This document shows, in pieces, positions 1-36,350 of a stretch of DNA of 64,000 bases. Below the pieces are notes generated by a model that worked only from the letters and a program-made list of their open reading frames with translations, made no database searches and was not told where the DNA came from. This stretch comes from Gemmatimonadota bacterium (GTDB taxonomy: Bacteria > Gemmatimonadota > Gemmatimonadetes > Longimicrobiales > Gaopeijiaceae), in NCBI GenBank assembly GCA_028873595.1, contig JAPPOV010000009.1:1-64000 (forward strand), in the 5' to 3' direction. How positions within the stretch are numbered: position 1 is the first letter of the stretch; every line of letters begins with the position of its first letter. The position numbers and the translations under genes were made by a program.

Positions 1-1166
1 GGATCTTCTGTGTGGTCTCCCAGCTCGTGGGCTCGGAGGGGGGCAAGCTTTTTCCAGGAGGGTCTGCCGCGTTCGGACCTGATGGCTCCGAGCTCGCGCG
101 TGCCCCGCTCTTCGAGGAAGGGAGCACCCTGGCTAACCTGGATCCTCGGACGATCGACCGGGTGAGAGGTGCGGCCCCGCTCCTCTCCGATCTGGAGCAG
201 GCGCTCCCATGCCTCCAGGGATCCCTGGACCGGGCGGTTGCGCGCGGGTCGGGGGAGGAAGAGCGCGAGTCCGAGAAAGAAGGGGCATCCGCGGCTGTCC
301 TGGGCGGGTTGGGCCCTACGGACGCGGCGGCCCCGGACATTCGAGACACGAGCCTTCTTGATATCGATGCTTCGCTGGTGGAACGGACGCTCGTCGAGTT
401 CATCCGGGAAGAAGTGCAGCGTCGCCGCGGCTTCGAACGTGTCGTTGTAGGCGTTTCCGGTGGCGTCGACTCGGCGGTATCCCTCGCTCTGGCCTGTCGC
501 GCGGTGGGCCCCGAGAACGTGTACGGTTTTCGACTCCCGTACCGGAGCTCAAGCCAGGAAAGCCTCGACCACGCGCAACTGGTCCTGGACGCGACGGGCG
601 CGCACGGTCGTACGATCGAGATCACAGCCCCCATCGATCGTTATGTCGAGGAGTACGAGCCGGACATTTCGCCCCTTCGGAAAGGGAATCTCATGGCGCG
701 ACTCCGAGCCGTGATCCTCTTCGACCAGTCCGCAGGCCTGGGCGCGCTCCCGCTGGGTACCGGGAACAAGAGTGAACGCCTGCTCGGGTACTTCACCTGG
801 CACGCTGATGACTCACCGCCGATCAACCCAATTGGGGATCTCTTCAAGACGCAAGTGTGGGCCCTCGCACGACACTTGGGCGTACCCTCGGCGATCATCG
901 AGAAGCCCGCGACAGCCGATCTCGTAAAGGGGGTGAACGACGAAGACGAGCTCGGGATCTCCTACCATGACGCCGATCCGATTCTCTTCTGGCTGACCCG
1001 GGGATACCATGCGTCGGACCTGGAGCCAATGGGTTTTGAAGCGGGGGCCATCGAGACGGTTCGCCGACGCCTCGAGTCGACGCACTGGAAGCGTGAGCTG
1101 CCGACTGTCGCCGTGCTTTCATCGAGTGCCATCGGCGAGTTCTACCTTCGGCCTGTAGACTACTAG
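1..1166 (+). CDS. nadE: Glutamine-dependent NAD+ synthetase, 5' end cut by window edge
   Basis: Amidates deamido-NAD to NAD+, the last step of NAD biosynthesis, in the cytoplasm. The open frame runs in from the window edge: its first codons (from base 3) match the end of a nitrilase-type glutaminase domain, so the ATG-like start at 12 is internal. The synthetase domain begins near base 390 and carries the PP-loop SGGVDSA (about 451-471), then the GTGNKSE and FKTQVWALA segments. About 60 residues of acidic, Ala/Gly-rich linker, longer than usual, separate the two domains. The stop overlaps the stop of the convergent downstream gene by 4 bp. The family call is firm; the amount of missing N-terminus cannot be judged from this window. 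Confidence 0.93.
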   Translation, partial: IFCVVSQLVGSEGGKLFPGGSAAFGPDGSELARAPLFEEGSTLANLDPRTIDRVRGAAPLLSDLEQALPCLQGSLDRAVARGSGEEERESEKEGASAAVLGGLGPTDAAAPDIRDTSLLDIDASLVERTLVEFIREEVQRRRGFERVVVGVSGGVDSAVSLALACRAVGPENVYGFRLPYRSSSQESLDHAQLVLDATGAHGRTIEITAPIDRYVEEYEPDISPLRKGNLMARLRAVILFDQSAGLGALPLGTGNKSERLLGYFTWHADDSPPINPIGDLFKTQVWALARHLGVPSAIIEKPATADLVKGVNDEDELGISYHDADPILFWLTRGYHASDLEPMGFEAGAIETVRRRLESTHWKRELPTVAVLSSSAIGEFYLRPVDY

Positions 1167-2188
1167 CCGGGAGCAATCCGCCGACGCATCTGCTCTAGAA
1201 GGGGCAGAGGCGTCAATTCGCCGTCGATGATCGCGGCGAGTTCCTCCTCGCGACGCCAGCGCGCCTCCAGCTCCGCCACCTCGAGTTCGAGCAGCGCCTG
1301 TTCCGCAGCCTCGTTCGCTGCGATCTCCAGAGCGATGCCACCGGTGCGTTGCACGTCCCCCAGACGCTTCCCGTCGCGAAGGACGATCCGGGTGAAGTCC
1401 TGGGGCGAACCGGCCTCCTGAATCAGGTGGGTGGCCTGGAAGACACGCTCCTCCGACGCGCCGGCGAAGTGGTGATAGGCGAGCACCCGACGGAGTGTGC
1501 GATCCGCCTCGTCACCCGTAAGGCGCAGCCCGGCATCGCGATACAGCCCACATCTCGCGCATCGTGACACGATCTCCACCTCTCCAGTCTCTTGAGACAG
1601 GAAGAGTCCAAGAGCATGTCGATCCCGGAACGCCACCGATTGGACGTTGAAGCCACAGTTGGAGCATTCTTGCTGTCCTTTCCAGGCCGAACTTCCGAAA
1701 CGTAACCAACGGGCCGCATCTCTCAGGGTGTCGCTCCCGTGCCCCAGAATGATCCAGACGCCCAGCAACGAGATGCCACCCGCCGCCCAACCGCCCGCGA
1801 CCACCGCACCCGCAGCGACGCTCCCTGCGACACCAAGCTTGTCCCAGTTCCTCTTGCGGCCGGCCAGCTCTTTGCCGTACCGCCACCACGCCTCCTCCTT
1901 CAGCTTCGCCGGCCCAACACGGACAATCTCCAGTGGGCCGGCCCGCATCAAAGCGATGTTATCCGTCCTGGACAGGAGGCGCGCCCGATCCACTGTGACC
2001 TTCTCGAGTTCCTCCAGAGCCTCCCAGCGACCCTCGATCGGCATCAGGGACCAGCGACGGCAGTTTTGGCATATCGCCCAGAGGCGCCCCCGAGAAGGAT
2101 CGAAGGCAAGCCGATAGGCATGCGGTGCGTGCTCGAGCTCCTCGTTCGCCTCGAAGGGCGTGGAGCACACCAGACAGCGGGTGAACAC
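1163..2188 (-). CDS. Hypothetical zinc-ribbon protein with central membrane segment
   Basis: Not recognised as a named family. The 341-aa product has two CxxC pairs near its N-terminus (CLVC and CQNC), a Gly/Ala-rich hydrophobic stretch at about residues 130-160, and two further CxxC pairs (CSNC, CARC). It looks like two zinc ribbons around one membrane hairpin, and the C-terminal third is helical and Glu-rich. I placed the start at the GTG at 2188 because AGAGGAG sits about 9 nt upstream; an in-frame start at 2287 would add 33 unlikely residues. It converges on nadE with a 4-bp overlap and stands alone on this strand. The zinc binding is inferred from the cysteine pattern. Confidence 0.7.
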   Translation of the reverse strand: MFTRCLVCSTPFEANEELEHAPHAYRLAFDPSRGRLWAICQNCRRWSLMPIEGRWEALEELEKVTVDRARLLSRTDNIALMRAGPLEIVRVGPAKLKEEAWWRYGKELAGRKRNWDKLGVAGSVAAGAVVAGGWAAGGISLLGVWIILGHGSDTLRDAARWLRFGSSAWKGQQECSNCGFNVQSVAFRDRHALGLFLSQETGEVEIVSRCARCGLYRDAGLRLTGDEADRTLRRVLAYHHFAGASEERVFQATHLIQEAGSPQDFTRIVLRDGKRLGDVQRTGGIALEIAANEAAEQALLELEVAELEARWRREEELAAIIDGELTPLPLLEQMRRRIAPG

Positions 2189-2571
2189 GGTGCGTGTCTC
2201 CTCTGATGCAGTCCCGGGAGGGCGTGGCAGCAAGGGCAACGCCGCTGATACACAAAACGATACGTTACCGATCCCGGGATTCGTCACTGGCGAGTAGAGC
2301 CTCGGTCATGCTTCTCTCTTCACGGACGCTGGCGTGTTGCCGAAAGAGTGGATTCCCGTCGCGTGGAGTACCGCCCCCACAGGCGCCCGAGAGAGCCAGG
2401 CAATGCGAAGCCGACGTGTGCCATCATGGGTAGTCCAGTCCCACCGTCGTCTCTGTCGAGCGACTACGAAGCAAAGCTTCTGGGGAACTTCCTTCGGCTC
2501 TGATCCTTGGGTAGCTTCAAAGGCGTGAATGTTACGTCCTCACTCCGCCCCGACAGGCTGATCGCAGTCTG
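2189..2571. other. Divergent intergenic region, no gene seen
   Basis: This 383-bp stretch separates the zinc-ribbon gene (leftward) from kdsB (rightward), so it must hold promoters for both directions. Short open frames in it have no Shine-Dalgarno signal and no recognisable product. I saw no convincing -35/-10 pair, RNA gene or strong hairpin. Confidence 0.5.
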
Positions 2572-3348
2572 ATGAGCGGCCAGGTTCTCGGCATCGTGCC
2601 CGCCCGGCTCGCGTCGACCCGGCTCCCCCGAAAGCCTCTCTACCCGCTCCTCGGAAGACCGTTGATCGAGTGGGTTTGGCGGAGAGTCGAATCGATGAAG
2701 ATCCTCGACCACGCGGTCGTTGCCACCGACTCTCCGGATGTTGCAGCGGTATGTGACGCGATCGGGGCGCCCGTCGAAATGACCTCTCCGGATCACCCGT
2801 CGGGCACTGATCGGGTTGCCGAAGTAGCGAATCTGCCCAAGTACCAGGATTTCGACCTCATCGCGAATGTCCAGGGGGACCAGCCGCTCCTCAAGGAGGC
2901 CCACCTGCGCAGCGCAATCGATCTCGTTCGGCGTGACGGATGGCAGGTCGGCACGTGCGCAACCCCGCTACGGACAGAGGAAGCCCGTACAGACCCTTCC
3001 GTAGTGAAGGTCATCCGCGCGGCCTCCGGCCGCGCGCTTTACTTCTCACGTGCGCAGATTCCGTACATGCGGGACGGATCGCCGACGCCGGACGACCTCG
3101 AGCGTAGCCCTTTTCTCCGGCATGTCGGAATCTATGCATACGAACGCACGGCCCTTCAGAACTGGGTCGCGCTCGCGCCGTCTCCGCTGGAGCGGCTCGA
3201 GATGCTGGAGCAACTCCGCCCTCTCGAAGCCGGACTTCTCATCGGTGTCTCGGTTGTTGGAGAGGCAGATCCGGGCGTGGACACGCCCGCAGATGCCCTC
3301 CGGATGGAACAGCAGTTGAGTCGACTCAGCCACCCCACCCCCGTCTGA
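2572..3348 (+). CDS. kdsB: CMP-Kdo synthetase (3-deoxy-manno-octulosonate cytidylyltransferase)
   Basis: Activates Kdo with CTP to CMP-Kdo for transfer to lipid A. The 258-aa product starts with the cytidylyltransferase signature around IVPARLASTRLPRKPL and continues with HPSGTDRVAEV and NVQGDQPLL, the nucleotide- and metal-binding loops. Length is normal for the family. It opens a Kdo/LPS block with pyrG 3 nt downstream, which places CTP synthesis next to its consumer; kdsA and kdsC follow. Start ATG at 2572 directly precedes the conserved first strand. Confidence 0.95.
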   Translation: MSGQVLGIVPARLASTRLPRKPLYPLLGRPLIEWVWRRVESMKILDHAVVATDSPDVAAVCDAIGAPVEMTSPDHPSGTDRVAEVANLPKYQDFDLIANVQGDQPLLKEAHLRSAIDLVRRDGWQVGTCATPLRTEEARTDPSVVKVIRAASGRALYFSRAQIPYMRDGSPTPDDLERSPFLRHVGIYAYERTALQNWVALAPSPLERLEMLEQLRPLEAGLLIGVSVVGEADPGVDTPADALRMEQQLSRLSHPTPV

Positions 3349-5013
<1,665 letters not shown>

Positions 5014-5054
5014 CGCGATGACCTTTCGGCCGAGTGCGTCAGAGGCGCAGTGAG

Positions 5055-5849
5055 ATGTTGGAGACGTTCACACTGATCGCCGGCCCTTGTACGCTCGAAG
5101 ACGATGCCTTGAATCTCGAGATCGCCCGTGCTCTCGCCGAACTGTCCCAGGACACCGGACTCCCAATCGTGTTCAAGGGATCCTTCGACAAGGCGAACCG
5201 CTCCCGGATCGACTCGGCGCGAGGCCCCGGCCTGGACGCGGGTCTCGAGCGGCTTGCGACCGTGCGTTCCAAGACGGGTCTACCCGTCCTCACGGACATC
5301 CATGAGGTGCACCAGGCCGCGCCGGTCGGAGAAGTCGTAGACGTGCTCCAAATCCCGGCTCTTCTCTGCAAACAGACGGATCTCCTCGTCGCGGCCGGGA
5401 GGACTGGACGGGCCGTGAATGTGAAGAAGGGGCAGTGGATGGCTCCCGAAGAAATGGGGCCGGCGCTGCAAAAGGCTCGACAGGCGGGCGCTTCGGAGGT
5501 CGCGGTCACCGAACGGGGAACGATACACGGATATGGAGACCTCGTCGTCGACATGCGCTCGTTCGCACGTCTTCGAGCCGCGACCGACGCGCCCGCCATG
5601 TTCGATGGCACACACGCCGTCCAAAGGCCCGGACTCCAGGGAGGCTCGAGCGGAGGAGACCCAGAGCACATCCCGGCCCTGGTACGAGCGGCCGTCGCTG
5701 CGGGATGTGACGGACTCTTCCTCGAGACTCATCCGGAGCCGGCCAGAGCGCCGTCCGATGGGACGAACATGCTCCCGTTGGAGCAACTCCCCGCACTTAT
5801 CCAAGATGTACTCTCGCTACGCGCGGCATTGATGCCATCGCCCTCCTGA
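5055..5849 (+). CDS. kdsA: 2-dehydro-3-deoxyphosphooctonate aldolase (Kdo-8-phosphate synthase)
   Basis: Condenses PEP with arabinose-5-phosphate to Kdo-8-phosphate. The 264-aa product has the family signatures AGPCTLED, FKGSFDKANRSR and NVKKGQWMAPEEM, the TERG loop, and DGTHAVQRPG. I chose ATG 5055 because AGAGG lies about 9 nt upstream and the conserved fold starts directly after it; a GTG at 5034 would add seven residues. The motif KGQWM has Lys where metal-dependent forms carry Cys nearby; the metal class was not settled. It is co-directional with pyrG and kdsC. Confidence 0.95.
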   Translation: MLETFTLIAGPCTLEDDALNLEIARALAELSQDTGLPIVFKGSFDKANRSRIDSARGPGLDAGLERLATVRSKTGLPVLTDIHEVHQAAPVGEVVDVLQIPALLCKQTDLLVAAGRTGRAVNVKKGQWMAPEEMGPALQKARQAGASEVAVTERGTIHGYGDLVVDMRSFARLRAATDAPAMFDGTHAVQRPGLQGGSSGGDPEHIPALVRAAVAAGCDGLFLETHPEPARAPSDGTNMLPLEQLPALIQDVLSLRAALMPSPS

Positions 5850-5864
5850 TCCGCCCGATACACG

Positions 5865-6434
5865 ATGACGACGATGTCCGACCCGATCCCGGAAGAACTG
5901 GCACGCCGCATCCGCCTTGTCATCTTCGATGTCGACGGCGTACTGACGGACGCAGGTGTGTATGTGGGAGCGACTCCCGGCGGGGAAGCGGTAGAGTTGA
6001 AGCGCTTCAACATTCAGGATGGTGTGGGTCTGAAGATGCTCGGATGGGGTGGACTCGACGTAATCATCGTCTCCGGCCGGGTGTCGGAGGCGACGTCGAT
6101 TCGCGCGGCGGAACTGGGTATCGCGGGATGCTACCAGGAACCGAATGCCCACAAGCTCAGGGTGGTTGAGCGCATTCTCGAGGAGCGTGGTCTGGCGTGG
6201 GACGAAGTGGCCATGATCGGTGACGATATCCCGGACCTGGCGGTGATGCGTCGCGTTGGACTAAAAGCCGCAGTAGCCAACGCAACGCCACCGATCGCTG
6301 CGATCGCCGACTGGCAGTCATCCCAGTCGGGCGGGCACGGGGCGGCTCGTGAATTCTGCGATGCGCTCCTCGCCGCGCGGGGAGACCTCGACAGGGTGGT
6401 GGAGAGATACGTCGAGGATCGGAGTCAGACGTGA
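5865..6434 (+). CDS. kdsC: Kdo-8-phosphate phosphatase (HAD family)
   Basis: Dephosphorylates Kdo-8-phosphate to Kdo, the step between KdsA and KdsB. The 189-aa product is a cap-less HAD phosphatase. Motif I is DVDGVLTDAGVY, motif II is IVSGR, and motif IV is GDDIPDLAVM, as in KdsC. Two ATG codons lie close together (5865 and 5874) and either may be used. The TGA stop overlaps a GTG that opens a small downstream ORF (GTGA). No arabinose-5-phosphate isomerase (kdsD) is present in the window. Confidence 0.94.
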   Translation: MTTMSDPIPEELARRIRLVIFDVDGVLTDAGVYVGATPGGEAVELKRFNIQDGVGLKMLGWGGLDVIIVSGRVSEATSIRAAELGIAGCYQEPNAHKLRVVERILEERGLAWDEVAMIGDDIPDLAVMRRVGLKAAVANATPPIAAIADWQSSQSGGHGAAREFCDALLAARGDLDRVVERYVEDRSQT

Positions 6435-6607
6435 CCGACTGCGGGCCTCGGTCGCCTCAGGTGACCCTTCCCGATGAACCTGGGGCGGGCGCTGAGAGTA
6501 GGATGGAGGCCTGCCGAATCATGGCTCTGCGGGTGGTGACGGAAGCCGGACATCTCCAGGATATTTCGTCTGCACGATCTGATGAGAGCGGGAGCGATCT
6601 GAGATGA
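6431..6607 (+). CDS. 58-aa ORF bridging kdsC and lptC
   Basis: A small frame fills the 169-nt gap between kdsC and lptC exactly. Its GTG start overlaps the kdsC stop (GTGA) and its TGA stop overlaps the lptC ATG (ATGA). Such double overlap is typical of translationally coupled operon genes. The product is soluble, with two Cys and no recognised domain or membrane segment. Third-position GC is about 60% by my count, lower than the surrounding genes, so it may be a leader peptide, a decayed gene or chance. Function unknown. Confidence 0.35.
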   Translation: MTDCGPRSPQVTLPDEPGAGAESRMEACRIMALRVVTEAGHLQDISSARSDESGSDLR

Positions 6608-7164
6608 GGAAAGAACGAGGCCGGAGCAGTGGGCGTATCGTAGCGATGAGTCTCGCGCTGATGACCGCCTTGGCGTGCTCCGAAGAAGTGAATACGCCGG
6701 TGGCCAACGCTGACCTGCAGGCGATGGAAGCCGACTATGTCGCGTACGGCATGGTCAGTTTCGTGACGGCCAGCGGCGTCCGTGAGGGCCGGATCGAAGC
6801 AGATACTGCGTACGTGTATGAAGAGTCGTCGACAGCGATGCTCCGCCAGATGTCGATCGTGTTCTACGATGAATTCGGCGCCGAAAATGCGACCGTGACC
6901 GGAGAATTCGGTGACTGGAACCAGGAGACCAATCGCATGGTGGCTCGCGGTGACGTCGTCCTTCTCATACACGGGGACTCGAGCCGTATCGAGAGTGCAG
7001 AGATCTACTACGACCCGGGTCTGGAGAAAGTATGGAGTGACTCTCTTACTACCCGAATCATGAGCGACGGCAACGTCATGAGCGGGACGGCGTTCGAGTC
7101 AGACATGGCCTTCGAGAACATCACGATCGAGAACATGCGAGGTGGGGCGCGGCGGGTCTTTTAG
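6604..7164 (+). CDS. lptC: LPS export protein LptC, lipoprotein form
   Basis: Periplasmic bridge component that passes LPS from the LptB2FG transporter to LptA. The 186-aa product has a basic N-terminus, a short hydrophobic segment and a lipobox-like LALMTALACS, suggesting lipid anchoring where E. coli uses a membrane helix. The rest is a beta-strand-rich OstA/LptC fold with regular VxGxxxxxN repeats. Context (OstA-like protein and lptB directly downstream, Kdo genes upstream) supports the call. Sequence conservation in this family is low, so assignment rests on fold pattern plus neighbourhood. Confidence 0.82.
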   Translation: MRKERGRSSGRIVAMSLALMTALACSEEVNTPVANADLQAMEADYVAYGMVSFVTASGVREGRIEADTAYVYEESSTAMLRQMSIVFYDEFGAENATVTGEFGDWNQETNRMVARGDVVLLIHGDSSRIESAEIYYDPGLEKVWSDSLTTRIMSDGNVMSGTAFESDMAFENITIENMRGGARRVF

Positions 7165-7191
7165 ACCGCCGTTTTGCCCAGGTTCTGCCCG

Positions 7192-8826
7192 ATGCGTCGT
7201 CTGCGAGCTTCCGTCCTTCTGGGAACGGCATCTCTCCTTTTGGGGATGCTCTCGCCCATACCGCTTGCGGCTCAACAAGGATGCGAGTTCGTCGCACCCG
7301 GAAATGACATCAGCCGGACACTCACCGTTGGCGGGCTGCAAATCACGTATATCACGAACCCGCACTTCCTCTGCGCGGGGGGAGTGGAGATATGGGCCGA
7401 CTCCGCCGAAGCGTTCCCTGGCCGCGGGTATTCTCATTTGATCGGGAACGTGCGTTACGTGGAGAGCGTCCGGGAGCTGACGGCGGACGACGCGCGGTAT
7501 TTCACGAACGAAGGACGCTTGCAAGCCGAAGGTCACGTGACGGTCGTCGACGAGGAGCAGGGGTCCTCGATCGAGAATGGGGACCTGGTCTACCTGCTCC
7601 AGACGAGTTTTCGAGACGTCGCGGAGATGACCGTCACGACCGGTGCCGACGGAATTCGCCCGGTTGCGGTCCTGACGCCGCCGGAGCCCCATGGTGACTC
7701 ACTGACCGCAGCCGAGCCTACGACCGAAGAGGAGTCGGGCTCTTCCCCGGCGTATCGGGTGGTAGGTGACCGGATCTTCCTTCTCGGGGACGGCTACTTC
7801 ACGGCGTCCGGGGATGTCGAGATCGAGCAGGACTCCCTCCTCGCGTTCGCCGACTCTGCAGAGTACGACGCAGAAGGCACCGGCCTCCTCCTCGATGGGA
7901 ATGCCCGCGTCCTGAGCAACGGCTACGATCTCGTAGGCCGCTCCATCACCATGAGCGCTCCGGGCGCGGACGCGAGCACGATCCATGCACGCCGCGAAGC
8001 CAGGGTCGAAGGCGACGACCTCCTGCTCACATCCGCCCAGATCTTCCTCTTCATGCAGGATGACCAACTCGACCGCCTGGTGGCGACTCCGATGGTGGGC
8101 CCGGCGGCGATCAGCGCCGACTCGGTCGACCACGAGCGCCCGGAAGCGACCGTGCAGGACTTCGTACTGACCGCCGACTCCCTCGAGGTGCGCGCGCCGA
8201 ACCAGACGGTGGAACGTGTCTTCGCTTCAGGCTCGGCGCGCAGCGTCTCTCAGGCAGGCGACTCCCTGTCGGTGGAGCTTCTCCCGGAGATCGCTCAGAG
8301 CGACTGGCTCGAGGGCGACACGGTCATTGTCAACTTCGCCCATGTGGGATCTCCTCCGTCAGCGGCCGGCGAGGCTCGGGAAGCCGCCCGCCTCGACGTC
8401 GAGGACATCGTTGCGATCGGTCGGGCGCGGTCACTCTACCGGCTGGCCCCGAGCGACTCTCTGGCTGAACTCGGAGTCGATCCTCCGGCGGTGCATTACG
8501 TCGTGGGAAGCCAGATCCGGATCGAGATGGTGAATCGACAGGTCCAGGGGATGGAGGTTGCTGGGCAAACACAGGGGGTGCACCTCGAGCCTATGCAGCG
8601 TCGGCCACAGGCTGACACCCTCCTTGTCGGCGACACCCTGGCAGTGTTGGATACGATGCGCATCTCGGTCGACACTGCAGGGATCGCGCAGGCGACACCG
8701 ATGGCGGAACTCCACGACGGCGGGCGTGTCCGTGTGACCGACCCATCGACACCCAATCCCACCGTTCCTCGCCCCTCGCGGGCCCGCACAGAGGACCAGC
8801 CGTGGAATCGCCCATGGATCCGATGA
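7192..8826 (+). CDS. OstA/LptA-like LPS transport protein, large form
   Basis: Probable periplasmic LPS-carrying protein of the LptA/OstA superfamily. The 544-aa product starts with a signal peptide ending near LPLAAQQ, then has repeated beta-strand units of the OstA type (for example [19 protein letters not shown] and [17 protein letters not shown]). It is about three times the size of E. coli LptA, with at least two OstA-like blocks and an acidic C-terminal part. ATG 7192 starts the signal peptide; an upstream in-frame start at 7174 adds only six residues. The end overlaps lptB. No lptD is in the window, so this long form may take over part of the bridge; that is inference. Confidence 0.8.
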
Positions 8827-9746
8827 AGGAAGATACCGACATGCCCGATGAAACCTCGAGCGCGCGTGAGTCTGCGCCAGTGGACGCCGAGGACATTCCC
8901 GAGCCAGAGGTGAGCGAAGGTCGTGGTGGCGAGGATGCTCTCACTCCGGCGTCAACATCACCGACGACAACGATGACGAAGGTCGAAGGCGACAGCCGGC
9001 TCTGGGCAGTGGGTCTGACCAAGGCCTATCGAAACCGCCGGGTGGTGGACACGGTGGATATCGAGGTGAGCCAGGGCGAGATCGTCGGCCTCCTCGGGCC
9101 AAACGGTGCAGGGAAGACGACAACCTTCTACATGATGGTCGGGCTCATCCCCCCCGGTTCCGGGACCGTACATCTCGATGACGAGGAACTGACGCGGACC
9201 CCGATGTATCAACGGGCACGAAAGGGCGTTGGGTATCTCGCACAGGAGCCGTCGATCTTCCGAAAGCTCTCGGTCGAAGACAACGTCATGGCGATCCTCG
9301 AGACACTCGGGCTTTCTTCTTCCGAAGAGAACGCCCGTCTCGAGGAGCTCCTTGGCGAGTTGGGCCTCACCGGGCTCCGCCAGAGCAAGGCGTACTCCCT
9401 TTCCGGTGGTGAGCGCCGTCGCCTGGAAATTACGCGCGCATTGGTTCAACGGCCGAAGTTCATGCTGCTCGACGAGCCGTTCGCCGGGATCGATCCGATC
9501 GCGGTCCATGACATCCAGGAGATCGTTCGCGGTCTCAAGGAGCGCGGCATCGGCGTGGTGATCTCAGACCACAACGTCGAACAAACGTTGGAGATCGTGG
9601 ACCGTGCCTACATCATGTATGAGGGCAAGATCAGGGTGAATGGCACGGTTTCCGAGTTAGTTTGGAATGACGAGGTGGCCGAGATCTATCTCGGACCCGC
9701 GCTGACGGCCCGAATGAGAGGCAGGTACCCCCGTCCGGGGGCCTGA
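8823..9746 (+). CDS. lptB: LPS export ATP-binding protein LptB with acidic N-terminal extension
   Basis: Cytoplasmic ATPase that powers LPS extraction through LptFG. The 307-aa product has Walker [10 protein letters not shown], the Q-loop AQEPSIF, signature LSGGERRR, Walker [10 protein letters not shown] and the switch His in ISDHNV, all close to LptB. The first 60 or so residues are an acidic, Pro/Ser/Thr-rich extension not usual in the family. ATG 8823 overlaps the upstream stop (ATGA); ATG 8841 has the better Shine-Dalgarno (AAGGAAG) and would shorten the extension by six residues. rpoN follows, as in many proteobacterial lpt operons. Confidence 0.93.
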
Positions 9747-9800
9747 GGAGGTACTAGACGGTCGATCTCCGCGCGGTACATGCGTGGGTCAAGAGGGCAG

Positions 9801-11309
9801 ATGAGTTCGTTCAACGCCAAACTCTACCAGAGTGCTCAGCTCCGGCAGGAGATGCGGATCAACCCGCGCCTGTACCAGGCGATGGAGTTGCTCTACATGC
9901 CCCTGCTGGATCTTGAGCAGCATCTCAAGGAGCAGATGGAGGAGAACCCCTTCCTCGAGATGCAGGAAGCAGACGACCAGAAAGAAGTCGAACTGAAGGA
10001 AGACACGGTCGATGAGCCTATGGGCGACGACCAAGTGGACTGGGAAGAGATCCTCCTCGACGGCTTCGACGTCGGTGGGCGCCGCGAACAATACGAACAT
10101 CGTGAATTGTTCGAGCCCACGCCGGTCGAGGCGCAGGACCTTCACGATCACCTTCAGGGGCAGCTGATGCTGCTTGCCATCTCCGAGCGGGAGCTTCGTC
10201 TCGGTGAAGAGCTGATCGGGAACATCGACGACGACGGGATGCTCGCGTGCACGCCGGAAGAGTGCGTGGCCAGCCTGAACGACTGGGTCGAAGAAGTCCG
10301 TCTTACCGTGGTTCAGAAGGCGAACGAACTGGAGGACGAGACCGAGCGCTGCGCGGAGCTCGCCGAAATCCAGGAGACGTTTCGTTCGTACGAAGAGATC
10401 GAGGCCGAACGCATGCTCTCTGTCATTCAGCGCTTCGATCCACCGGGTGTGGGGGCCAGGGATGTCCGCGAGTCGATTCTCATCCAGCTGCGGCACCGGC
10501 AGGAGGAGGACTCACTGGCCTACCGAATCGTAGACCAGCACTTCGACGCGCTCATCAACAGGCACCTCACCGACATCGCGAAGGCGATGGGGGTCAAGCC
10601 GATCGAGGTTCAGGATGCCGCAGACTCGATCAGCCACCTCGACCCGAAGCCTGGCTTGAAGTATTCGGTCTCGCCCGAGGAGTACGTCATCCCTGACCTC
10701 ATCGTCGAGATGATCGACGGTGAATACATGGTTTTTGCCAACGATACGAGCCTGCCGCGGCTCCGGATCTCAAAATCGTATCGGGAGGTCGCAAAAGACA
10801 AACGCGCCTTCTCGGGCGAGAACAAGGAATTCATCGCCAGCAAGCTCAACTCCGCGAACTGGATGATCCAGGCGATCGAGCAACGCCGTCAGACGATGCT
10901 CAAGGTCATGAACTTCATCGTCGACAGGCAGCGTGAATTCTTCGAGCGTGGCGTTCAGTACCTCAAGCCACTCACACTCCGAGAGGTGGCCGATCACATC
11001 GAGATGCATGAGTCGACCGTCTCCCGCGTCACGAACAAGAAATTCGTGCAGACGCCCCGAGGCGTGTTTTCGCTCAAGTATTTCTTTTCGAGCGGCCTGT
11101 CGACGACGAGCGGTGAAGAGATCTCTGCACGGGGTGTCCGCGACAAGATCAAGGGCATGGTTTCGGAAGAGGATTCAAAGAAGCCGCTCACGGATCAGGC
11201 GATCGTGAACCTGCTTCAAGCCGAGGGCGTGAAGATCGCGCGCCGGACTGTGGCCAAGTATCGAGATCAGCTCGGGATCCTCCCGGCGCGAATGCGGAAA
11301 CGAGTCTGA
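9801..11309 (+). CDS. rpoN: RNA polymerase sigma-54 factor
   Basis: Directs RNA polymerase to -24/-12 promoters that need AAA+ activators. The 502-aa product has the Gln/Leu-rich activator-interacting region I at its start, an acidic region II (about residues 45-90), the core-binding region, the HTH around HESTVSRVTNKKF, and the RpoN box ARRTVAKYR near the C-terminus. Start is ATG 9801 or ATG 9780 (seven residues longer); a GAGGAGG at 9747-9753 is too far from either to decide. It follows lptB, a conserved arrangement. No sigma-54 activator gene is in this window. Confidence 0.96.
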   Translation: MSSFNAKLYQSAQLRQEMRINPRLYQAMELLYMPLLDLEQHLKEQMEENPFLEMQEADDQKEVELKEDTVDEPMGDDQVDWEEILLDGFDVGGRREQYEHRELFEPTPVEAQDLHDHLQGQLMLLAISERELRLGEELIGNIDDDGMLACTPEECVASLNDWVEEVRLTVVQKANELEDETERCAELAEIQETFRSYEEIEAERMLSVIQRFDPPGVGARDVRESILIQLRHRQEEDSLAYRIVDQHFDALINRHLTDIAKAMGVKPIEVQDAADSISHLDPKPGLKYSVSPEEYVIPDLIVEMIDGEYMVFANDTSLPRLRISKSYREVAKDKRAFSGENKEFIASKLNSANWMIQAIEQRRQTMLKVMNFIVDRQREFFERGVQYLKPLTLREVADHIEMHESTVSRVTNKKFVQTPRGVFSLKYFFSSGLSTTSGEEISARGVRDKIKGMVSEEDSKKPLTDQAIVNLLQAEGVKIARRTVAKYRDQLGILPARMRKRV

Positions 11310-18460: not shown

Positions 18461-18969
18461 CTGGGACAGTGAGCTGGGAAATCGAACGACGCTTCCTGGT
18501 GCGCGTGCATGAGGACGTGTGGCCCCGTCTCGGGACCGGGTCCCATCTCAAGCAGGGCTATATCCGCAACGGAAGCCCTTCCGTACGCGTCCGGTTCGGC
18601 GAAGAGCGCGGCGCCGTCCTGACCTCGAAGAGCGGATCGGGTATCCGGCGTCGGGAGGTCGAGGTCGTGATCCCGGACCAGATTGCCGAGGCGCTCTTTC
18701 TCTCCGCCGACGATCGTGTGGTCGAGAAGATCCGGTGGAAGGTTGGCCCCTGGGAATTGGACCGATTCATAGGCCCGCTCGAAGGGTTGACGCTCATGGA
18801 AATCGAGCTGGAAGAGGAGCGCGACATGCTTCCTGATCCGCCGCCAGGTGTACAGATACTATGTGAAGTCACCGACGATAAGCGGTATGTTAATGGTCGC
18901 TTAGCTCGCATGAGCAGTGACCAGAAAAGGAACCTGATCAGGAAGGCTTACGCGGAGGTGCAGGGATGA
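18457..18969 (+). CDS. CYTH-domain protein (triphosphate tunnel enzyme family)
   Basis: The 170-aa product is a single CYTH domain, the beta-tunnel fold of inorganic triphosphatases and class IV adenylate cyclases. The N-terminal EIERRFLV corresponds to the ExExK motif with Arg in place of Lys. Alternating charged strands (SVRVRFGE, MEIELEEER) line the tunnel. Start GTG 18457 and stop overlap both neighbours by 4 bp, so it is co-translated with the methyltransferase and RlpA. Activity on triphosphates is the family expectation only. Confidence 0.85.
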   Translation: MTGTVSWEIERRFLVRVHEDVWPRLGTGSHLKQGYIRNGSPSVRVRFGEERGAVLTSKSGSGIRRREVEVVIPDQIAEALFLSADDRVVEKIRWKVGPWELDRFIGPLEGLTLMEIELEEERDMLPDPPPGVQILCEVTDDKRYVNGRLARMSSDQKRNLIRKAYAEVQG

Positions 18970-19523
18970 ACGGGAGCCAGGGCCTTAGCGTGAAGATCGC
19001 GGTGGTGCTGCTCGGCTTCTCGACGACCGGCTGCACGCTCATTGGGTCGCCGGAGCTGGTAAGGCCTGCATCTACGGCTGATGGGTTCGCGTCGGAGACA
19101 CCGCAGCCAGAGCCGCCCAGCCGTAGCGGCAACATGGATGAATACGAGCTGGATGGCGAGACCTATCGTGTCCTGGACACCTCCTACGGGTACGACGAGC
19201 GCGGGGTCGCGTCCTGGTATGGCGAACAGTTCCAGGGTCGGCCGACGAGCAGCGGTGAGCCGTTCGAGATGAACCGCCTGTCTGCTGCCCACAGGACGCT
19301 GCCCATTCCGGCGTGGGTCAGGGTCACCAACCTCACCAACGGGCGAAGCGTGCTCCTGCGGGTCAACGATCGGGGTCCTTTTGCGGACACAGGGCGGCGG
19401 ATCATCGACGTGTCCTATGCAGCCGCCGTGCGCCTCGGGATGGTCGAAGCAGGGACCGCGTCCGTCCGGGTTCAGGCGGTCGAGCCCTGGCAGTACCGCC
19501 TGCGTGAAAACGGATCCAGGTAG
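18966..19523 (+). CDS. rlpA: RlpA-like septal lytic transglycosylase lipoprotein
   Basis: Outer-membrane-anchored enzyme that cleaves glycan strands lacking stem peptides, usually at the septum. The 185-aa product has a signal peptide with lipobox GFSTTGC, then the double-psi beta-barrel: GVASWYGEQFQGRPTSSGE, the AAHRTLP strand and VNDRGPF with the catalytic Asp. No C-terminal SPOR domain is present, so septal targeting by that route is not expected. ATG overlaps the CYTH stop (ATGA). It is the last gene before the dif-like site. Confidence 0.92.
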   Translation: MNGSQGLSVKIAVVLLGFSTTGCTLIGSPELVRPASTADGFASETPQPEPPSRSGNMDEYELDGETYRVLDTSYGYDERGVASWYGEQFQGRPTSSGEPFEMNRLSAAHRTLPIPAWVRVTNLTNGRSVLLRVNDRGPFADTGRRIIDVSYAAAVRLGMVEAGTASVRVQAVEPWQYRLRENGSR

Positions 19524-19642: not shown

Positions 19643-19670
19643 ACTTAACATAATATATATTATACGAAGT
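19643..19670 (-). other. Probable chromosomal dif site (XerC/XerD recombination)
   Basis: Read on the - strand the 28 bp divide into an 11-bp arm ACTTCGTATAA, a 6-bp centre TATATA and an 11-bp arm TTATGTTAAGT. The second arm matches the strongly conserved XerD-binding half of bacterial dif sites, and the whole closely resembles the dif of B. subtilis as I recall it (about 24 of 28 positions). It lies between convergent rlpA and a TPR gene and is an AT-only core in a GC-rich genome. The coding-strand switch across the window supports a terminus. Confidence 0.85.
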
Positions 19671-19792: not shown

Positions 19793-20473
19793 TCAGGTGT
19801 TGGATCCGCTTCGAATCTCTTCGATGCGCATCTCGAACTGGCCGCGATTCGGCGCATTCTCGTCAAGATCCCCGAGGACCTCCTCATACAGCTCGATGGC
19901 ACCCTCTCCGTCGCCCTGCGCGCTCCGGATCCGCGCCGCGGCAACGAGCGCGTCCCGTACCTGAAAATCGAGGTCAGACCGATCGGCAATGGACAGATAC
20001 GTGTCTTCGGCCTCCTCCCACCGGCCCTCCTGTTCGTACGCCTGCGCCAGGAGCGTGGCGCTCTGGAGCGCTACAGGCGATCCGGGACGCTGTCCGATCG
20101 GCTCGAGAACGGCCAGGGCCTGCTGGGGGTCACCGGACTCGAGGTAAAGCTCCCCGAGCACCAGACGGGCCTCACCCTCGTACGCCGTGCTGCCGAACTG
20201 GTCGAGGAAGGTGGCAAGATCAATCTTGGCGCCCTCCGTGTCATTGATCGAGATCGACTGGTAAATGGTCTCCAGTGACTCTGCCGCCCGCTCGTTCATC
20301 TGCGACCGGAAATTCATGTAGTAGAAGCCACCGGCGATCAGGATGGCGAGGAGAACGCCCCCGACGGTCATGAGCTGCTGGTTGGCTCTTGCCCAGTTGG
20401 TGACCTCGAGAACGCCTACGACAAAGGAGTCGTCGGCATCGTGACTGCTCTGGCTGGTCCTGCGCTTCGACAT
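19793..20473 (-). CDS. Membrane-anchored TPR protein (YfgM/YbgF-like)
   Basis: The 226-aa product has a short cytoplasmic N-terminus (MSKRRTSQ), one membrane helix at about residues 35-57, then helical TPR units in the periplasm. This is the layout of YfgM, an ancillary factor at the SecYEG translocon. Start ATG 20473 is preferred to a longer frame from 20530, which adds 19 residues without a Shine-Dalgarno. It stands alone and ends at the terminator beside the dif-like site. The YfgM comparison is by architecture, not proven orthology. Confidence 0.78.
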   Translation of the reverse strand: MSKRRTSQSSHDADDSFVVGVLEVTNWARANQQLMTVGGVLLAILIAGGFYYMNFRSQMNERAAESLETIYQSISINDTEGAKIDLATFLDQFGSTAYEGEARLVLGELYLESGDPQQALAVLEPIGQRPGSPVALQSATLLAQAYEQEGRWEEAEDTYLSIADRSDLDFQVRDALVAAARIRSAQGDGEGAIELYEEVLGDLDENAPNRGQFEMRIEEIRSGSNT

Positions 20474-20583
20474 AATGGGGTCCGAACGGGGTTCACGGGC
20501 TGCCTGACGCAGGCCCGGAAAAAGCGTCAAAAGCTAGAGGGCGCACACAAACGGGTCAACGAAGTCCGGGTTCTGAGACAGAC

Positions 20584-30866: not shown

Positions 30867-30940
<74 letters not shown>

Positions 30941-32825: not shown

Positions 32826-32834
32826 TTGAGCGCT

Positions 32835-35800
32835 ATGGCTACCTCCCTCAAAAGCTGTTCGAGCATGCCGATACAACACCTCATTGTATTCGCGCTCACA
32901 TGCCTCACTGCCACCCCTTTCGCCGGGTCTGCTCAGGACATCGAGTTCGCGCCCGACCGGCTAATCGTGAAGTATCGACCGGGGACTCCCGGGACGCGCG
33001 GCGCGGCCCTAAGCGCGGCGATTGGGGGACAGGTTGTGAAGCAACTCTCCCTGATTGGCGCCGACCTTGTCAGCCTTCCAGACGACTGGGATGTGCAAGA
33101 CGCTGCAGACTGGTATCGAGGCCAGTTTGGAGTCGAGTATGCTGAACCGGACTACCGGTTCTATCCCATCGAAACCATACCGACTCCACTGTATGGCTCT
33201 GCAAGCGCGAAAGCGACCGTGAGCCCTCTTTACGACATCCCCGACGACCCACGCTTTGAACAACTCTGGGCACTGAACAATACGGGCCAGACAGGTGGAC
33301 GCGAAGATGCTGATATCGACGCGCTTGAGGCTTGGGATGTGACTACCGGCGATGAGACTCTGATTGTTGGAGTGATCGATACCGGGATTGATCCCGAACA
33401 CCCAGACCTAATAGACCAGATGTGGGTGAACGCGGGTGAGATTGCGGACGATGGGATCGATAACGACGGGAATGGCTTTATTGACGACATATACGGTTGG
33501 GATTTCGCTAATGATGACGCGTCCGTTTATGACCTTCCTGATGTAGACGATCACGGCACACACGTAGCTGGAACGGTTGGAGCGACTGCGAACAATGGCG
33601 CCGGCGTGATAGGGGTAGCGCACAACGTTCAAATCATGAGTCTGAAGTTCCTTCACAATGGCGGGTATACCTCGGACGCCATCGATGCAATTCAGTACGC
33701 GATGGACAACGGGGCCCATATGACCCAAAACAGCTGGGGAGGAGGGGGGGCGTCGCTCGCACTCCAAGAAGCGATTGAAGCCTCCGGAGAGGAGGGTATG
33801 CTGTTCATCGCTGCCTCGGGGAACCGCTCAGTGAACACAGATTCCTCACCGATGTACCCCGCGGCTTACCCTTCCGAAAACATCATCTCGGTCAACTCCA
33901 CAAACCACCTAGACGAACTATCAGGGTTCTCCAATTACGGTCTAATTTCAACCGACCTGGGAGCTCCCGGCAGTGCGATCATGAGCACGGTGCCGGAGGG
34001 CGAGTATGCGTCATTTAGCGGAACATCGATGGCCGCTCCGCACGTCACTGGGGTTGCTGTCCTCGTATATAGCGAATTTCCCGATCTCACATACCAAGAG
34101 GTCAAAGACCGCCTGATGCAGAGCGGAGACCCAATCGAGGCACTCGAGGGGAAGTCAGTCAGTGGTCGACGGCTAAACGCATTCAGTGCGCTCGATAACG
34201 ACTCCATCGCGCCGGCCGCAGTCACCGATCTCTCTATCACGGACGATCCAGAGAGGGGAGCCATCACACCTTTCGCGGGAACGGCCCTGACATTGTCTTG
34301 GACGGCACCGGGTGATGACGGTACCACCGGGTCCGCGACCGCTTACGATCTACGTTACTCTACCTCGCCGATCACCACAGATGCCGAGTTCGCGGATGCA
34401 CTTCAGGCTACTCGCGAGCCTCAGCCGGGATCATCCGGCTCGACCGAGACATCCACAGTCATCGGCTTGAATCCTGAGAGCACCTACTACTTTGCGGTAA
34501 AAGCCAGCGATAACGTTGGAAACCAGTCGGCTCTATCTAACTCTCCCGACGGCGAGACCGGCTTAGTCACAGTCCTCTTCAGCGATGGAGCTGAGACTGC
34601 AGACAGTGAGCGCCTCTGGGATGCTGACCCACCATGGACCCGAACTTCACTTGGGAGCAGCCCGGACGACTCTACGGTGCCCCTCGGGGGAGACTGGAGT
34701 TGGGTAACTAGCGAGGAGGAGTACACAAATGGCCTTAACGCCAGTCTTACCTCCATTCCGATAGACCTCAGCAACGCCTCTAACCCAGTCCTTCAGTTCG
34801 ATCATCGCTACGAGATTGAATCTGGATGGGACTTCGGCTTCGTTGAGGCCTCAATAGATGAAGGACTGACATGGAGCGAGCTGGAGAGCTTCACCGGCAG
34901 CCAGTCAGAGTGGACGAGCGCATCGTTGACCCTGAATGACTTCACCGGCAGCGGAGCATTTCAGGTACGATTCCGTCTCCAGACAGACGCGTCGGTAGTG
35001 GACGATGGGTGGAATTTAGATGACATACGCCTCATTGCAGACACAGAGGGCGTCCTTCTAATCGAAACTGCTCTGGATGCATCTGGAGACACCGCTCTCG
35101 TGACCCTAGCACTGACCAATAAAGAGCTGGTGACCGGGGTTAGCTACCAGTTCTCTTGGGCGGGCCAAGGCGAATCACCTGGTGTACACCCGCTTTCGTT
35201 CGACGCGAGCAGCCTCACAGCCAGAGCATCAAGCCTGACGCACTCCACGGAGGTCGATACCGACGAGCATCAGCTAACAGGGATCCTTGTCAGTACATCC
35301 GGAGATGGCACGATCGAGCCTGGAGAAGGACCCATAGTGGAGTATCGGTTTCCGCTGAACGGAGACCTGTCGTCAACTGGTTCCGGATACATCACCGTTG
35401 TAGAAACGGGCAGCCCCGCCTCCGGAGAGCTTCCTGATATATCAGTTTCCGTGCCCTTCGCTCTTGCCGAGGGAGACCTTTCAGACGCCTCGGGTAACCC
35501 ACTCGTGGCTGGCTTAAACGTTGGATCACCGTTGGTACTCCGGGATAGCATCCTGAATGCGGATGTCGATCTTGATGGGGCACTGGATATCAACGACGTC
35601 GTGGTGATGATCGATTTTTATCTCGGTCGCACAGAAATGTCCGGCCTAGAAATGGCCCTCGCCGACACGTATCGGGACGGGCGCTTGAACGTGGTGGATA
35701 TTGTCAGAGCCATAAACCTCGTCCTAGGCCGTGAGATCGGGAATTCGCCCGCTACGGTTCAGACGCTAGCCTCCAAATCTCTCAAGCCTCGCCCAGATCT

Positions 35801-36350
35801 CGCTGTATCACTCGGAGCAGCCCTGGCGTCGGCAACCCAAGGCCCGTCTGACCCAAGTTCAATTGTGGCTGAAGTTCCGGGGGGAGTTGTGGGACTCGAG
35901 GTCGGCATCGAGCACGGTGCTTCCCAGGTAAGAGGTTCTAGACTGTTACTGGACGAGTCCGAATATCAAATGGTTGAGAAAATCGGGCACACCAGCTCTA
36001 GATTCATGATCTATAGTTTGAGCAACACGCCCCTTCCCGACGGATCCGAACGGCTAATCGCACTTGATCTGGATCAGTCCACGGGCTCGGCTTCAGAGGG
36101 CAGAGACAACTCGATCTACCTCACTGAAGTGCTGGGTGTTGACGCCGCAGGCTCGCCGATTTATCAGCCGATCGATCCCGTGACTGCAATTAGAGAGCTA
36201 CTCGGCCAGTCGGCGTTGGCCCTATCGGAAAAAGTCCAACTCGATCGCCGAGGCAACGACGACGGTGTGTTCAATCTGGGTGACGTGCTCTCGCTGATGG
36301 AAAGATCTGGAATGTTTTCGATTAATTCGAACGACGGGGTGGCCCGATGA
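32835..36350 (+). CDS. Secreted subtilisin-like protease with Fn3, jelly-roll and dockerin-type repeats
   Basis: A 1171-aa serine protease (S8). Order: signal peptide; propeptide-like RLIVKYRPGT region; catalytic domain with Asp182 (VIDTGIDPEHP), His240 (DDHGTHVAGT) and Ser398 (GTSMAAPHV); an Fn3 domain (about 460-560); a MAM/jelly-roll-like domain (about 565-740, ending DDGWNLDDIRLIA); a cohesin-like beta domain (about 745-900); a two-repeat dockerin (DVDLDGALDIND and DTYRDGRLNVVD, each ending in an LGR segment, about 908-962); another beta domain; and a lone calcium-loop-like repeat (NDDGVFNLGDV) near the C-terminus. Start is ATG 32835 rather than TTG 32826. It follows the cohesin-like lipoprotein at once and overlaps the next gene (ATGA). 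Confidence 0.9.
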   Translation: MATSLKSCSSMPIQHLIVFALTCLTATPFAGSAQDIEFAPDRLIVKYRPGTPGTRGAALSAAIGGQVVKQLSLIGADLVSLPDDWDVQDAADWYRGQFGVEYAEPDYRFYPIETIPTPLYGSASAKATVSPLYDIPDDPRFEQLWALNNTGQTGGREDADIDALEAWDVTTGDETLIVGVIDTGIDPEHPDLIDQMWVNAGEIADDGIDNDGNGFIDDIYGWDFANDDASVYDLPDVDDHGTHVAGTVGATANNGAGVIGVAHNVQIMSLKFLHNGGYTSDAIDAIQYAMDNGAHMTQNSWGGGGASLALQEAIEASGEEGMLFIAASGNRSVNTDSSPMYPAAYPSENIISVNSTNHLDELSGFSNYGLISTDLGAPGSAIMSTVPEGEYASFSGTSMAAPHVTGVAVLVYSEFPDLTYQEVKDRLMQSGDPIEALEGKSVSGRRLNAFSALDNDSIAPAAVTDLSITDDPERGAITPFAGTALTLSWTAPGDDGTTGSATAYDLRYSTSPITTDAEFADALQATREPQPGSSGSTETSTVIGLNPESTYYFAVKASDNVGNQSALSNSPDGETGLVTVLFSDGAETADSERLWDADPPWTRTSLGSSPDDSTVPLGGDWSWVTSEEEYTNGLNASLTSIPIDLSNASNPVLQFDHRYEIESGWDFGFVEASIDEGLTWSELESFTGSQSEWTSASLTLNDFTGSGAFQVRFRLQTDASVVDDGWNLDDIRLIADTEGVLLIETALDASGDTALVTLALTNKELVTGVSYQFSWAGQGESPGVHPLSFDASSLTARASSLTHSTEVDTDEHQLTGILVSTSGDGTIEPGEGPIVEYRFPLNGDLSSTGSGYITVVETGSPASGELPDISVSVPFALAEGDLSDASGNPLVAGLNVGSPLVLRDSILNADVDLDGALDINDVVVMIDFYLGRTEMSGLEMALADTYRDGRLNVVDIVRAINLVLGREIGNSPATVQTLASKSLKPRPDLAVSLGAALASATQGPSDPSSIVAEVPGGVVGLEVGIEHGASQVRGSRLLLDESEYQMVEKIGHTSSRFMIYSLSNTPLPDGSERLIALDLDQSTGSASEGRDNSIYLTEVLGVDAAGSPIYQPIDPVTAIRELLGQSALALSEKVQLDRRGNDDGVFNLGDVLSLMERSGMFSINSNDGVAR

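Follow-up and report, generated by a model that had tools for sequence, protein, structure and literature searches.

A 28-bp sequence in the window (the whole stretch of 64,000 nucleotides that was analysed) is almost certainly the dif site of a Gemmatimonadota chromosome, acting in the resolution of chromosome dimers. The site indicates where the replication terminus of this genome lies, and it provides a dif profile for a little-studied phylum. The 28-mer itself is unremarkable as a dif, and sites of this kind have been predicted within the phylum before: excerpts of Kono et al. 2011 (PMC3025954) include a predicted dif for one Gemmatimonadetes genome, a site of the same kind as the one described here. 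The original prediction, made from the window, did not cover the phylum, the linkage of xerD to dif or a DnaA-box-like element found beside dif in sister families. The latter two are the parts that go beyond it and are worth following.

The dif core and its uniqueness

Read on the minus strand, the 28-mer has the 11-6-11 organization around a TATATA centre that had been predicted, as confirmed by the sequence (Table 1). The arms are imperfectly inverted, with 8 of 11 positions complementary. The last arm had been taken for the XerD half, and it is indeed nearly identical to the XerD arm of E. coli K-12 dif, which likewise spans 28 bp with a 6-bp centre and agrees with the present site at 22 of 28 positions, differing at 6. 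The predicted distance of about four bases from B. subtilis dif also held, with 4 of 28 positions differing. It can be seen that the site is an AT block in GC-rich DNA (G+C 5/28, compared with 0.655 and 0.59 in the 200-bp flanks) and that it lies between convergent genes, both as originally described. Within the XerC arm, ACTTCGTATA (window 19661-19670) is identical to the ten innermost bases of one loxP arm, perhaps by chance.

Table 1. Features at and around dif in the window
Feature	Coordinates	Strand	Sequence or basis
dif core, 28 bp, 11-6-11	19643..19670	-	ACTTCGTATAA-TATATA-TTATGTTAAGT, read 19670..19643
XerC-type arm ACTTCGTATAA	19660..19670	-	sequence; arm assigned from known dif sites
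Central hexamer TATATA	19654..19659	-	sequence
XerD-type arm TTATGTTAAGT	19643..19653	-	sequence; arm assigned from known dif sites
rlpA-like gene, XerD side, convergent with TPR gene	18966..19523	+	Pfam DPBB_1
TPR gene, XerC side	19793..20530	-	Pfam TPR families
Gene block, XerD side: NAD synthase, then kdsB, pyrG, kdsA, kdsC, lpt genes, rpoN	12..11309	+	NAD_synthase by Pfam; other names by reading

The genome is a 3.23-Mb draft in 52 contigs, 94.6% complete, with dif on a contig of 91 kb. Within 3 mismatches the 28-mer occurs once in the whole draft, which agrees with the expectation that it should be the only strong dif in the genome. A 21-base part of it, searched with up to 3 mismatches, gave a mean of 0.00 matches when the window was shuffled 100 times. 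The real window had matches at dif alone, one per strand owing to the near-palindromic sequence of the site. For a profile, 131 sites from other genomes were used, which remained of 135 loci once the window's own site and three doubtful ones had been removed; against this profile dif scored 55.5, and the best non-overlapping place on the 91-kb contig scored -18.2.

Relatives of the same family carried a site within 3 mismatches in 27 of 96 genomes, one copy in each. Across the phylum, a looser pattern with 2 mismatches found sites in 319 of 394 genomes, the other 75 having no match to this pattern; a reversed control pattern was by eye also matched in three of the 394 rows. Thirty genomes of other families, picked among the loose-pattern matches, were all matched again (30/30). 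Some genomes gave double matches, many of which were the two strands of one near-palindrome and a few of which were separate places; the doubled sites inspected in other families were contig overlaps or strain variants. Among the 27 family sites information content was high within the 28 bp and low outside, falling to 0.71 and 0.50 bits in the adjoining columns and to at most 0.37 bits further out. Conservation in the family thus ends at the edges of the 28-mer. The neighbouring genes are shared as well, synteny of rlpA and dif being one of the checks originally proposed. Loci of 3 kb were compared at the 27 family sites, some of these loci being truncated at contig ends; 20 had a TPR homologue on the XerC side and 17 had one of RlpA on the XerD side. 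The TPR homologue also occurs in some loci of six other families (f2, f4, f6, f7, f9 and f10).

Terminus position and the Xer machinery

On the 91-kb contig GC skew is +0.024 to the left of dif and -0.056 to the right, and the cumulative maximum falls about 50 bases from dif. The predicted change of sign near 19.6 kb is therefore present; skew is nevertheless negative over the contig's first 5 kb. The octamer GGGNAGGG, the KOPS of E. coli, is distributed over the two strands as 4/1 to the left of dif and 1/9 to the right (p 0.017). When this contig was pooled with those of five relatives (G005, G022, G061, G113 and G119), the counts were 56/10 and 12/51 (p 2e-14). These results show that the KOPS-like octamers reverse polarity at dif. 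In the stretches fetched from the relatives, the skew maximum lay about 0.1 kb from dif in G061 and G113 and 2 kb from it in G022, and it was far away in G005 (55 kb) and G119 (15 kb). G022 consists of a single 2.89-Mb contig, on which dnaA and dif are separated by 50.1% of its length; skew sampled over the remainder of this contig was noisy. The separation was 42-45% of the contig in G113, G131 and G157 and just 26% in G251. The own genome being fragmented, it is the skew of its dif contig together with the position opposite dnaA in G022 that places dif at the terminus. Taken together, uniqueness, skew and synteny support the original view of the window as the replication terminus and dimer-resolution locus. 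Points that weigh against the reading as dif are the distant skew maxima of G005 and G119, the short dif-dnaA separation in G251, the 75 phylum genomes that lack a match, the fragmented draft, and Xer genes that are truncated and score low.

Two other readings of the 28-mer are both extremely improbable. A mobile element that exploits XerCD (IMEX type) might use the 28-mer for attachment or have left it as a scar, since such elements carry dif-like sites, as does a viral contig described below, and since contigs end at three of the 27 family dif sites where 0.3 were expected. Against this, the draft holds no second copy, the 28-mer sits at the skew maximum, and the doubled sites inspected in relatives were overlaps or strain variants. 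Its neighbours, moreover, are housekeeping genes in conserved order, and in relatives a single dif lies between these same genes, so that the empty-site arrangement has in effect been seen. According to the other reading, the 28-mer is intergenic AT-rich DNA such as a promoter and looks like dif by coincidence, and one promoter-like match does overlap dif. Neither flanking gene needs a promoter there, however, because the two converge, and such a block would hardly give a profile score so far above the next place or be conserved across the phylum while the flanks differ. Profile score and phylogeny rule this reading out. A module of the XerS/difSL type was likewise rejected, as the genome has two Xer genes and no frame read next to dif in the window was a Xer gene.

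The three contig ends mentioned above (G041:C13, G091:C12 and G038:C507) lie 1-21 bp from the site, the expectation of 0.3 referring to ends within 150 bp, and dif is a place where assemblies are prone to break. The idea that these ends prove integrating elements is not supported, the doubled sites inspected being overlaps or strain variants. The viral contig (L416, 4.6 kb, a gokushovirus by reading) has overlapping ends and dif-like sites at 71-96 and 4298-4323, which amounts to one site per unit, just ahead of the capsid gene.

Four tyrosine-recombinase matches were found in the own genome. Two are Xer genes, XerD-like (G000:C36:3) and XerC-like (G000:C27:5) by best NCBIfam model; each is cut within 5 bp of a contig end, and both frames end ahead of the catalytic tyrosine, with scores that do not reach the curated NCBIfam cut-offs. 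Both genes are whole in G061, G022 and G113. The XerD of G061 exceeds the NCBIfam cut-off, and its whole XerC-like protein scores 289.7 bits, below the cut-off of 335. The own FtsK has alpha, motor and gamma domains (FtsK_gamma 82.5 bits, cut-off 30.6). The own genome is thus predicted to encode XerC and XerD, with both genes cut by contig ends, and in having XerC-like, XerD-like and FtsK-gamma genes it resembles E. coli K-12. By analogy with known Xer systems, binding, cleavage and strand exchange by XerCD and activation by FtsK would be expected at the 28-mer. Once an odd number of crossovers has linked two sister chromosomes as a dimer, FtsK, the translocase of the septum, would follow the polar KOPS-like octamers and pair the two dif copies near the terminus, and its gamma domain would activate XerD. 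XerC and XerD would cut and swap strands at both edges of the 6-bp centre, by which the dimer would be split in two.

Linkage of xerD to dif

Linkage was examined in 88 genomes, of which 80 had been picked for known dif position, mostly on larger contigs, and 8 were others; the own genome and G096, with dif and xerD on different contigs, were excluded from the count. The best TIGR02225 match in each genome was taken as xerD. The two lay on one contig in 69 of the 88 genomes and on different contigs in 18, while the best match in G128 was not XerD-grade and was unused. As many as 66 of the 69 had xerD 16.0-45.8 kb from dif (median 21.1 kb), and all 66 genes were on the side of the XerD arm and pointed at dif. 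G219 has two dif-like matches, of which the copy near xerD was used (65 of 68 when G219 is left out); two overlapping matches tie in G155, where the strand with TTATGT in the XerD arm was taken. The exceptions are G031 and G251, with xerD on the other side at 22 kb and 56 kb respectively, and G224, with xerD 2.2 Mb away. The linkage is present in families f1-f7 and f9.

In G005 and G022 the order runs xerD - NadE - KdsB - PyrG - KdsA - KdsC - LptB - RpoN - ... - dif, gene names other than NadE and XerD being given by reading. G113 and G119 have the same order with no NadE match, and the part fetched from G061 stops short of xerD. The window begins inside NadE and the own xerD is cut at an end of contig C36, which fits a position of xerD just beyond the block, as in the relatives. 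Rearrangement, not stable linkage, would be expected there. The linkage of xerD to dif points to selection or to a frozen terminus.

In E. coli K-12 xerD lies about 1.45 Mb from dif, whereas in Gemmatimonadota the distance is usually 16-46 kb. Linkage at the terminus between a recombinase gene and the dif that it serves is described for XerS/difSL and XerH/difH in passages of PMC2731167, where a single recombinase lies directly beside the site; here there are two recombinases, a classical dif and a distance of 16-46 kb. The same passages give 194 kb between dif and XerD in Sulfurimonas.

Elsewhere in the window, G+C is lower (0.56-0.60) between 31000 and 38000, near a tRNA gene at 30867-30940. 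This tract encodes long secreted-looking proteins, one of which (32826-36350) is subtilisin-like by reading.

A DnaA-box-like element in sister families

The 135 dif loci were oriented from XerC to XerD, and the family of the window was designated f1. Three doubtful sites (G290, G144 and G104) were kept in the counts; second copies of a site and L108, where dif is cut, were dropped. A box was scored when TGTGGRNAA, with at most 1 mismatch, started at +5 to +18 beyond the XerD arm. Such a box was present in 39/39 loci of f4, 37/39 of f5, 4/4 of f6, 4/5 of f3 and 3/5 of f2, against a background of 1.5% per window of equal width further out; by genus the counts were 18/18 in f4 and 17/19 in f5. 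In the same interval it was absent from the distant families f7-f11 (0/16 loci) and from f1 (0/26, one f1 locus with missing flank being left out). The start is at +16 in all 39 f4 loci. In f5 it is at +17 (21 loci) or +16 (12), often with a second box at +7 (18) or +6 (7). Three f1 genomes (G009, G016 and G065) have an exact box 11-12 bp out on the XerC side (chance about 2e-7), and two f5 loci (G161 and the doubtful G290) have a box on this side as well. The window itself has no box within 150 bp of dif on either strand, and within 500 bp the sole one-mismatch form lies about 350 bp out on the XerD side.

Of the f4 boxes, 33 of 39 read TGTGGNNAA, fitting TTNTCCACA: 16 are TGTGGAGAA, 15 TGTGGACAA and 2 TGTGGATAA. 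Among the f5 boxes 15 of 33 fit TTNTCCACA and 12 read TGTGGGAAA. DnaA boxes have the form TTNTCCACA or TTTCCCACA, which the commonest forms of the element fit. Judged by sequence, the sister-family element thus appears to match the DnaA box form, and binding of DnaA is, by a modest preference, the most likely reading. Boxes beside dnaA bear on this. Counting positions from the open frame, as the start codon is not proven, TTTTCCACA or TTATCCACA occurs near the start of dnaA in 8 of 9 f4 and 8 of 12 f5 genomes; these are single boxes with a different third base, and no clear cluster was seen beside dnaA in f4 or f5. In f1, TGTGGAAAAC-like boxes follow dnaA, and the own genome has two like boxes 10 bp apart after it; like boxes by dnaA occur in f1 and f11. 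A search for two boxes in 10-bp register gave 11 matches in 11 of 30 chosen genomes, 9 of them at dif, one beside dnaA (G061) and one elsewhere (G161).

Alternatively, the element could be the site of a terminus protein of some other type and not of DnaA, a reading that we consider possible, if on the doubtful side. It would agree with the tandem boxes in 10-bp register, which in f5 genomes and G126 are found at dif and not beside dnaA (the f5 match in G161 being elsewhere), and with the box pointing to dif from either side. The f4 box is also mostly TGTGGAGAA (16/39) or TGTGGACAA (15/39), whereas the boxes at the dnaA start read TTTTCCACA. However, the commonest forms resemble DnaA boxes, the same tandem adjoins dnaA in G061, two like boxes follow dnaA in the own genome, and most f4 and f5 genomes scored have TTTTCCACA or TTATCCACA near the start of the dnaA frame. 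DnaA itself therefore remains the preferred binder. A protein with tandem DnaA domains was considered for this role and rejected, as 11 of 20 f1 genomes have at least 3 PF00308 matches and none of these 11 has the box. PF00308 does occur twice in one open frame (about 590-860 aa), beside an ordinary dnaA, in many genomes of the phylum. Four such loci were inspected (L237 in G113, L238 in G005, L239 in G119 and L240 in G116). By reading, which gave all domain names other than PF00308 here, the next gene is DUF4388/TPR-like in three and not in G005; no DNA-binding tail was seen in the four proteins. Polarity of the KOPS kind was not seen for the box either: G113 has TTNTCCACA 3 times in the 200 kb surrounding dif, once forward and twice reverse on a single flank, in contrast to the polar GGGNAGGG.

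Building on the reading as a DnaA site, we propose tentatively, as a possibility somewhat short of even, that dif in several families is composite. The XerCD core would be joined by between one and three boxes for DnaA, spaced by one helical turn and set at a constant distance from the XerD arm, and the whole would form the end of a terminus block in which xerD lies. The initiator might then serve as an accessory factor of Xer or as a signal for the end of replication, and in the family of the window the element might have disappeared or moved to another position, with dif and the xerD block retained. If the box binds DnaA, initiation and termination would be physically linked in these families, and a classical dif with a 6-bp centre would not always be without accessory DNA. 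That such a dif needs no accessory elements was inferred in proteobacteria (passages of PMC2731167). E. coli K-12 dif has no TGTGGRNAA within 150 bp on the outward strand, whereas the sister families have the box. The plasmid sites cer and psi carry accessory DNA bound by PepA, ArgR or ArcA, about 180 bp in cer (parts of PMC5357621), and resemble the suspected arrangement in having extra protein-binding DNA beside the Xer core; the sister families differ from cer in that their dif is chromosomal, has a 6-bp centre and is accompanied by one to three boxes of 9 bp. In the portions of open-licence PMC text covered (including PMC3025954, PMC5357621, PMC4585315, PMC2731167, PMC3794950 and PMC13220808), no description was found of a DnaA box beside dif or of a conserved xerD-dif linkage with two recombinases.

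When contigs were scanned for dif together with the box, 80 of 117 matches were listed, and 71 of these 80 bear Gemmatimonad titles. Of the nine others listed, six have no XerC arm by eye and L269, labelled as an unidentified bacterium, looks real. Another of the nine, on a Calditrichaeota contig (L333, 1045-1088), also looks like a real dif, and on its XerD side TGTGGAAAA begins near +15; given this locus, the element may be older than Gemmatimonadota.
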